Assembly (NCBI GenBank): GCA_021801645.1 | Contig: JAJYXT010000025.1 | Location: forward strand, 1 to 62,400 | Length of the DNA stretch: 62,400 nucleotides | Direction: 5' to 3' | Source: a bacterium | Lineage (GTDB): Bacteria > Chloroflexota > Dormibacteria > Aeolococcales > Bog-877 | Shown here: positions 43,090 to 45,118 of the stretch, in pieces | Numbering within the stretch: the first letter of the stretch is position 1 | Layout of the letters: each line of letters starts with the position of its first letter | The notes under the pieces: generated by a model | Told to the model about the DNA's origin: nothing | Seen by the model: only the letters and a program-made list of their open reading frames with translations | Database searches by the model: none | Made by a program: the position numbers and the translations under genes

Positions 43090-43287
43090 CTACCCCGGGC
43101 TGGGGCCGGCGGATCTCCGCTGGGCCAGGAGGCGGGAGTGAACGCTGACCATCGCCCGGTACAGGGCGGGGCAGGTGGGACAGTTGGCGACATGGTGCTC
43201 CACGGCGGCGGTCAGGTCGGAACTCAGCTCCCCGTCGATCAGGTCTGAGGCCAGGTCCCGGGCCTCGGCGCATCCCAGCTCTCTCAC
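43090..43287 (-). CDS. Small zinc-finger (zf-HC2) anti-sigma factor
   Basis: A 65-residue protein that begins at a GTG overlapping the sigma-factor stop (GTGA). The zinc motif is H32-x3-C36-x2-C39 in EHHVANCPTCPALY, with C6 as a likely fourth ligand. This is a ZAS-type anti-sigma domain without any transmembrane segment, so it should be cytoplasmic. It probably binds the adjacent ECF sigma and releases it on redox or metal change. Longer upstream reading in this frame has no similarity and was discarded. Confidence 0.78.
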   Translation of the reverse strand: MRELGCAEARDLASDLIDGELSSDLTAAVEHHVANCPTCPALYRAMVSVHSRLLAQRRSAGPSPG

Positions 43288-43835
43288 CCGAACTCCTCCG
43301 CCAAAATCGATACCAGGTTCTGCCGCCCCCGACGCAGGTGGGACTTCACCGTGCCCAGCGGCCAGCCGGTGGCGTCGGCGATCTCCGCACCCGTCCAGCC
43401 CTCCAGATCGTGGAGGACCACCGCCTGCTTCTGGTCGGCCGTGAGCCGGGAGAGCGCCAACCCCAGCGTGCGCTGGCTCTCGGCCGCGACCGCGACCCCC
43501 TCCGGGTCGACGGTGTAGGCGGAGTCCTGCCAGAGGGCCTCCCGGCGCACGGCGGCCTCCACGCTCTCGCGCGACTGACGCCGGCGTAACAGGTCCCGGC
43601 AGGTGTTGACCACGATCCGTTGCACCCAGGTGCACACCGCGGACTCGGAGCGAAAGCCCCCGGCGGACTGCACCGCCTTCATGCTGGCGTCCTGGACCGC
43701 GTCCTCGGCCTGCTCCGCGTCCGAGAGCAGCGAGGTGGCCAGCCGAACGAAGCGCGGCCGCTGGGCCTCGAGGCAGCCCAGCAGCTCATCGCGGGATAGC
43801 TCCACACCGCAAAGGGTAGGGCGGGCGGGCGGCAC
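43284..43835 (-). CDS. ECF-type RNA polymerase sigma factor
   Basis: A 183-residue sigma70-family factor with only regions 2 and 4. Region 2: LLSDAEQAEDAVQDASMKAVQ and FRSESAVCTWVQRIVVNTCRDLLRRR. Region 4: LSRLTADQKQAVVLHDLEGWTGAEIADATGWPLGTVKSHLRRGRQNL, a clear helix-turn-helix. The start is uncertain: the GTG used here, or a GTG ten codons later giving MELSRDELLGC; neither has a strong ribosome site. Downstream overlap with the zinc-finger gene marks a sigma/anti-sigma pair. Confidence 0.9.
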   Translation of the reverse strand: MPPARPTLCGVELSRDELLGCLEAQRPRFVRLATSLLSDAEQAEDAVQDASMKAVQSAGGFRSESAVCTWVQRIVVNTCRDLLRRRQSRESVEAAVRREALWQDSAYTVDPEGVAVAAESQRTLGLALSRLTADQKQAVVLHDLEGWTGAEIADATGWPLGTVKSHLRRGRQNLVSILAEEFG

Positions 43836-43859: not shown

Positions 43860-44078
43860 TCAGGCCCCGCGAACCCGGCTGCCCCGGAACGGAGCCCGAA
43901 CCACTGGGGCCACCAGGCAGACATTGGTCACCCCGGCCAGAAGCGGAACCAGGCCGACGATGGCCACGATGACCCCGCCCACTCCACCGATGGCCAGCCC
44001 GACTCCGATCAGCACCAAGCCGGCCAGCATCCGCAGGCCCCGTCCACTCGCCGTCGCCATCCAAGCTGCCAACTTCAT
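43860..44078 (-). CDS. Small DUF2892-type inner-membrane protein
   Basis: A 72-residue protein with two hydrophobic helices (MLAGLVLIGVGLAIGG and VGGVIVAIVGLVPLLAGV) and a single Cys in TNVCLVAPV, the layout of the YgaP-like DUF2892 family. Function unknown; some relatives are fused to rhodanese. A very strong ribosome site AAGGAGGTGA fixes the ATG. It is 24 bases upstream of the sigma factor and probably co-transcribed with it. Confidence 0.7.
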   Translation of the reverse strand: MKLAAWMATASGRGLRMLAGLVLIGVGLAIGGVGGVIVAIVGLVPLLAGVTNVCLVAPVVRAPFRGSRVRGA

Positions 44079-44137: not shown

Positions 44138-44165
44138 TTGGATGCATGCCGCCGCCGGTTATAAT
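44138..44165 (+). promoter_or_regulatory. SigA-type promoter of dps
   Basis: -35 TTGGAT, a 16-base spacer and a perfect -10 TATAAT, 30 bases before the dps ATG. The 117-base gap also has to serve the divergent DUF2892 gene, for which no clear promoter was found. Confidence 0.75.
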
Positions 44166-44180
44166 TCGGACTGAGTCCGA
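44166..44180. promoter_or_regulatory. 7-1-7 palindromic operator at the dps promoter
   Basis: A perfect 7-1-7 palindrome, TCGGACT-G-AGTCCGA, begins directly after the -10 box and covers the expected transcription start. The 7-1-7 geometry is that of Fur-family operators, and a Fur-family gene is the second gene of the unit. Confidence 0.7.
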
Positions 44181-44195
44181 TTAGGAGGTAGGAGC

Positions 44196-44666
44196 ATGAT
44201 CACCATCGAGAGCGCGCTGGCCCCGGCCGCGGCCCGCCAACTGGGGGAGCGGATGCAGCGGCTGCTCACTGAGTTCACCGACCTGGCCCTGCAGGCCAAG
44301 CAGGTTCACTGGCATGTCACCGGACCCAACTTCGAGTCGCTCCACCTCCAGATGGACCGGCTGGTGGACGACGCCCGGGTCTGGGCCGACACCGTGGCCG
44401 AGCGCTCGGTGACCCTGGGGGTTCCCGTGGACGGCAATGCCGCCACGGTCGCCGAGGGATCCGGGCTCTCACCCATGCGGCTCGGCTACCTCTCCGGGCC
44501 GGAAGCCGTCGCTGAGATCACGGGCCGGGTGCGCCAAGTGGCCACGGACGTCCGCGTGGCTATAGCCGAGATCGGGGAGCTGGACCCGGTGAGCCAGGAC
44601 CTGGTGATCACCATCGCCGAGGCGCTGGACAAGCACCTCTGGATGCTGCAGGCGCAGCTCGGCTGA
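44196..44666 (+). CDS. dps: Dps-type ferritin (DNA-binding / iron-storage protein)
   Basis: A 156-residue dodecamer-forming ferritin that oxidises iron with hydrogen peroxide and protects DNA. The intersubunit ferroxidase residues keep family spacing: H38, H50, D54, D65 and E69, in VHWHVTGPNFESLHLQMDRLVDDARVWADTVAER. ATG with AGGAGG upstream. It is followed by a Fur-family regulator with overlapping ends, so the two are likely one autoregulated unit. Confidence 0.95.
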   Translation: MITIESALAPAAARQLGERMQRLLTEFTDLALQAKQVHWHVTGPNFESLHLQMDRLVDDARVWADTVAERSVTLGVPVDGNAATVAEGSGLSPMRLGYLSGPEAVAEITGRVRQVATDVRVAIAEIGELDPVSQDLVITIAEALDKHLWMLQAQLG

Positions 44667-45118
44667 CCAGCTCCAGGGCGGACGAGGAGGCGCTGCGGCA
44701 GGCCGGCCTGCGGGCCACCCGCCCCCGCTTGGCGCTGCGGTTGGCGTTGCGGGAGATGGCGGGCCACCGCACCGCGGATGAGGTGCGCGCCTGGCTTCGC
44801 GCCAAAGGAACCTCGGTGGCGCGCTCCACCGTGTTCCGCGGGCTGGAGGAGCTGGCCCGGGCGGGTTTGGTGATGCGGGCCGACCCCGGAGCAGGGCCGG
44901 CCCGGTATGAGCTAGCCCGGGAGTGGCACCACCACTTCGTCTGCCGCAGCTGCTCCGCGGTGGTGGACGTCCCCTGCGTCCGCGGCGAGGCTCCCTGCCT
45001 CGATCCCCAGCTGGCCACGCCGGCGCTGGTGGACGAGGCTCAGGTCACCTTCCGGGGGCTCTGCCCCGCCTGCGCTGCCGGGCCCGGGTGGGCCGGGCTC
45101 AGTCCAGCGACACCATGA
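44663..45118 (+). CDS. Fur-family metalloregulator (Fur, PerR or Zur type)
   Basis: A repressor of about 151 residues. The winged-helix half has [30 protein letters not shown] and [20 protein letters not shown]. The dimerisation half has [10 protein letters not shown] and GLCPAC, giving the two CxxC structural zinc pairs. The frame is open from a CTG that overlaps the dps stop (CTGA); the first ordinary start codon, a TTG at 44729, would remove the conserved first helix, so I extended to the CTG. Metal selectivity cannot be judged. Its end overlaps the convergent patD-like gene by 20 bases. Confidence 0.85.

Follow-up and report, generated by a model that had tools for sequence, protein, structure and literature searches.

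A GC-rich palindrome at the start of a dps-furA operon in Dormibacteria: a candidate operator of the FurA type

The window analysed here, a stretch of 62,400 nucleotides from an uncultured member of Ca. Dormibacteria, contains an operon that encodes a Dps/ferritin-like protein followed by a regulator of the FUR family. Its promoter carries a perfect 7-1-7 palindrome, TCGGACTGAGTCCGA, in which the arms TCGGACT and AGTCCGA flank a single central G (Table 1). The locus raises the question of whether this symmetry marks an operator for the adjoining regulator, or whether it is an accident of GC-rich DNA, the binding site of some other repressor or an element of the dps mRNA. With a probability of about 0.83, the palindrome is read here as the putative operator of an autoregulated, peroxide-inducible dps-furA unit, placed over the transcription start.

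Table 1. Positions of the features at the dps-furA locus and its divergent neighbour within the window
Feature	Position	Strand	Remarks
dps promoter, weak -35-like hexamer TTGGAT	44138..44143	+	3/6 consensus bases; spacer 16
dps promoter, -10 box TATAAT	44160..44165	+	kept in three relatives
Palindrome, proposed FurA-type operator	44166..44180	.	centre 44173
dps ribosome-binding site AGGAGG	44183..44188	+	from sequence
dps, Dps/ferritin-like, 156 aa	44196..44666	+	PF00210 E 1.6e-19; ATG at 44196
furA-like regulator gene, FUR family	44663..45118	+	PF01475 E 1e-19; probable CTG start at 44663
Divergent ECF-sigma-like promoter TGCATCC-N16-CGTCTAA	44117..44146	-
Small YgaP-like membrane gene	43860..44078
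ECF sigma factor gene	43284..43835

The dps promoter and its divergent neighbour

The initial annotation had placed the palindrome directly after a perfect TATAAT, and this description is borne out to the base, as the repeat starts immediately 3' of the -10 box and ends 15 bp upstream of the dps start codon. This TATAAT is the only one in the window, both strands counted, and the variants TATCAT and TATACT hold the same position in other genera. The interval first annotated (44138-44180) also includes the weak TTGGAT hexamer, for which a strict promoter scan returned no call as a -35 element. The centre of the palindrome lies approximately 7 nt past the -10 box, where transcription should start, and this geometry fits the blocking of RNA polymerase.

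The TTGGAT hexamer overlaps the -35 element of a divergent promoter of the ECF type, which precedes the YgaP-like gene, the ECF sigma factor gene and a probable anti-sigma gene. This promoter has no other exact match in the genome, and loci L023 and L019 of relatives retain it with an unchanged spacer of 16 nt, which suggests that the sigma operon is autoregulated. At two loci, L019 and L016 (genomes G007 and G006), dps-furA has decayed to fragments and the neighbouring aldehyde dehydrogenase gene looks intact. Broken remnants of dps and furA are found in G007, with the -10 box gone, one arm of the palindrome changed and the neighbouring sigma operon apparently intact, while dps is reduced to a tail in G006.

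Chance expectation and conservation of the palindrome

A bare perfect 7-1-7 palindrome is ordinary in a GC-rich window: 12 are present, against about 10 expected at 69% GC. Copies of this particular palindrome with up to three mismatches number 2 in the window against 3.2 expected, and are thus attributed to chance. The palindrome might itself have arisen by chance in GC-rich DNA and persist in the closest relatives through recent common descent alone, and its identity in two relatives (L005 and L006, with Dps identities of 95% and 92%) is weak evidence to the contrary, given that the flanks are nearly identical too. A more distant relative (L023, Dps identity 73%) speaks against such an origin. 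Its box, AATCTGGACACAGTCCAGATT, set in the promoter context TATAAT-CTGGACACAGTCCAG-ATT, differs from that of the window at pairs 6 and 7 from the centre, where both sides have changed together (C:G to T:A and T:A to C:G), and its symmetry is longer, extending to position 10. Such a palindrome also recurs at the corresponding position in three further genera, of which one lies outside the class. In all dps-furA operons detected, which span 5 lineages and 4 genera, a GAC-N3-GTC palindrome lies 4-7 nt past the -10 box; the named relatives in this comparison are metagenome-assembled genomes (MAGs). In G019, G030 and G267, which belong to other genera and families, the centres are 4-5 nt past the -10 box, compared with 7 nt in the window, and the first two have another copy across the -35 region, 27-28 bp upstream of the first.

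A leave-one-lineage-out matrix over seven dps-furA promoters, with training sites picked by eye in a manner that favours the dps set, gave p = 0.005 for the window promoter; all seven scored 0.015 or lower, and none of 22 controls fell below 0.12. The paired changes, the recurrence and the matrix test have already largely refuted a chance origin, which is now exceedingly improbable. It is position and conservation, not symmetry alone, that exceed chance.

Beyond this promoter, the exact palindrome has no second perfect match in its own genome. A search of that genome with two patterns, allowing up to two mismatches, gave scattered matches only, fewer than the reversed-pattern control, at sites covered by open frames in either strand. 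As no further good site was returned, the switch looks local, with no wider regulon seen. The pattern KGACWNWGTCM was likewise searched in four relatives, with counts against control of 2 and 5 in G001, 8 and 14 in G019, 16 and 11 in G030, and 2 and 3 in G267. There is no clear excess over control, and therefore no genome-wide regulon is claimed in these four.

The inverted repeat could also work as RNA, forming a 5' hairpin in the dps mRNA that governs its stability or the access of ribosomes. The full repeat can indeed form a stem of 6 bp closed by a 3-nt loop (-7.4 kcal/mol), but this fold is no better than that of shuffled sequences (z -1.06), and the stem would be lost from a transcript starting mid-repeat, approximately 7 nt past the -10 box. 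Furthermore, the second copies over the -35 region in G019 and G030 lie outside any transcript of the dps promoter. A hairpin in the dps mRNA is unlikely, and its use as a control element is very improbable.

The regulator gene and the box

The box is present in 5/5 dps lineages with an adjoining furA-like gene, and the matrix finds it at 0/22 dps loci for which tblastn detected no furA in the fetched flanks. The association has a Fisher p of 1.2e-5 with related loci that are not fully independent, and of 0.0014 in a cruder collapsed count that uses a rough family count for the controls; the number of independent dps-furA lineages is small. A fairer test of the matrix is provided by the catalase-linked set together with the controls. 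Trained on dps-furA promoters, it detects sites (simulated p <= 0.02) at 8/11 untrained catalase-linked or unassigned furA genes of the class, namely those of G040, G025, G022, G023 and G044 (furA-katG), G011 and G017 (furA adjoining an apparent catalase) and G013. No significant site was found upstream of the catalase-linked furA in G005, G009 and G014. At loci L049, L055 and L057, furA-like genes are divergent from an apparent monofunctional catalase, and their promoters hold weaker or different repeats, such as CTTGACGGGGTCAG in L049. The syntenic locus L046 (G012) has a sigma factor on one side and an aldehyde dehydrogenase on the other; it keeps a furA-like gene and is devoid of dps, and the matrix finds no box there.

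Another repressor, whether a different Fur paralogue, Zur or an unrelated regulator, might instead own this site, the adjoining FUR-family gene being a mere passenger. The genome does hold at least two other FUR-family genes, and GC-rich boxes are unusual for the Fur, Zur and PerR proteins of model organisms. However, the box follows furA and not dps, most catalase-adjoining furA genes have a like site without any dps, and the lack of a further good copy in the genome fits a regulator that acts locally and not globally. Ownership by another repressor is accordingly held to be unlikely. A box of the Rrf2/IscR type, a class of iron-sulphur regulators whose sites share the half sites GACT and AGTC with the palindrome, was considered and dropped, since the box follows furA.

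The operator that the initial annotation had proposed for the start of a dps-Fur unit thus withstands the comparison with relatives to which that annotation had tied it, as the palindrome is conserved and accompanies furA. Autoregulation, also claimed there, holds as the best reading because the box at dps loci goes together with the FUR-family gene; binding by the encoded protein, repression and the peroxide or metal signal are parts of the switch that we infer from sequence.

Both products of the operon are placed by profile searches. The Dps product scores 70.7 bits against PF00210 (cut-off 24.5) and 93.9 bits against the NCBIfam Dps equivalog, under its cut-off of 114. The regulator scores 71.3 bits against PF01475 (cut-off 23.1), and its best score among the NCBIfam PerR/Fur equivalog models is 51.3 bits against a cut-off of 200; it is therefore assigned to the FUR family and not to a named equivalog. 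Translation of the regulator likely starts at the CTG at 44663-44665, where CTGA overlaps the dps stop; upstream of the first helix, the window, G003, G004 and G001 have no in-frame ATG, GTG or TTG. The same junction has CTG in G030 and G019 as well, together with a GTG further upstream, and GTGA in G267.

Invariant in 12 regulator homologues are H35, E83, H89-H91, C94, C97, D102, C105, C112, C134 and C137, which include the two CxxC motifs for structural zinc. The residues H35, E83, H89, H91 and D102 align with the metal site of PerR, and C94/C97/C134/C137 with its structural zinc site; the profile of the regulator matches the PerR structure 2fe3 as well as any solved structure. In detail, His37, His91, His93 and Asp104 of PerR are matched by H35, H89, H91 and D102, and Glu83 replaces Asp85 (PerR numbering of PMC4866751). 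An Asp at PerR position 104 has been tied to H2O2 access, with Glu found there in Fur (PMC4866751), and D102 gives the regulator the Asp of H2O2 sensors. Conversely, BL00950 of Bacillus licheniformis, which has Glu at the PerR Asp85 position, showed no PerR-like repressor activity (PMC4866751), and by analogy Glu83 would count against a PerR-like function here.

In the proposed switch, the FUR-family product of the second gene would act as a dimer that carries Fe(II) or Mn(II) and binds the inverted repeat centred on GAC-N3-GTC. Bound there, next to the -10 box and on top of the transcription start, the dimer would block RNA polymerase and keep both dps and its own gene off. H2O2, acting with iron in the regulatory site, would inactivate the repressor and cause it to leave the DNA. 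Dps would then be made, bind iron and shield the DNA, and the regulator co-produced with it could later close the switch.

Comparison with known FUR-family switches

Control of a Dps-type gene by a peroxide sensor has precedent in PerR, which represses mrgA in Bacillus subtilis and dpr in Streptococcus suis (PMC4866751, PMC3458967). The present unit resembles these systems in its predicted FUR-family H2O2 sensor, Dps-type target and promoter palindrome, and in the conservation of Asp104 and the His ligands. PerR differs in that it controls several operons through AT-rich boxes, exemplified by NTANAANNATTNTAN (PMC3458967), whereas here Glu occupies position 85 and the regulator shares one operon with dps.

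The closer likeness is to mycobacterial FurA. The FurA box upstream of the autoregulated furA reads TCTTGACT-N-ATTCCAGA, and the ahpC operator, TCTGGAAT-C-ATTCCAGA, lies just downstream of the transcription start and acts as a repressor site (PMC4218801). By our own count, the G001 box matches the mycobacterial box at 13/16 positions, and the window box matches it mainly in the core. The window box is thus an odd-centred inverted repeat, located in the promoter of the operon to which the regulator gene belongs and FurA-box-like in core and position. In furA-katG, too, a peroxide-type regulator of the FUR family governs its own operon through an odd-centred repeat, with arms of the GAC/TTC type, and the signature HHH...C..C...DVxC...PCL...DEA is common to mycobacterial FurA and the regulator described here. 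The two systems differ in their partner gene, which is katG in mycobacteria and dps here, where it is placed first, and in the box, which here is GC-richer and perfect.

Within the class, regulators 40-47% identical are found at furA-katG and furA-catalase loci (G005, G040, G025, G022, G023 and G044; G009, G011, G014 and G017), most of which have matrix-detectable boxes such as CTGGACGCTGTCCAG. These loci differ from the dps-furA unit in having the regulator gene first, with the catalase following or opposite, and no dps. GAC-N3-GTC palindromes precede most of the catalase-linked furA genes examined and the mycobacterial box is alike, so that the "new box consensus" of the initial annotation was an overstatement; judged by its sequence, the window palindrome is a GC-rich member of the known FurA-type box. 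This likeness is no proof of identical recognition, as the dps-linked regulators and the catalase-linked FurAs differ in their recognition helix. The dps-linked regulators share HHHFVC and ...QVxFRG and lack the DN before HHH, unlike their catalase-linked homologues, which have DNHHH and ...EVTFWG or EVTYWG with small variations. The two groups lie apart in the tree with weak deep support, the catalase-linked regulators being set apart at 93/92, below the starred level, and a single dps-linked clade is not fixed.

It may be proposed, tentatively and at somewhat less than even odds, that the regulators linked to dps form a FUR subfamily of their own, dedicated to the repression of Dps and characterised by a separate GC-rich GAC-N3-GTC operator and by a start-stop overlap conserved as CTGA/GTGA. 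Such a subfamily would give lineages without KatG a self-contained peroxide/iron switch for Dps that works through one site. Within the genus, whose genomes are 84-93% complete and make absences provisional, katG was found in G005 only, as furA-katG with no dps match. Searches of an open-access library turned up neither a described dps-furA operon nor this kind of regulation in Dormibacteria. For a deep lineage without cultured members, the locus offers a regulator and an operator that can be tested as a pair. It suggests that the katG target of FurA-type control can be swapped for dps, and it widens the FurA box to include GC-rich forms, which scans with a Fur or PerR consensus would miss. 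Together, the unit joins a FurA-type box, a Dps target and the regulator in the same operon; the type of switch is known, and the pairing with dps and the GC-rich form of the box in an uncultured lineage are its new details.
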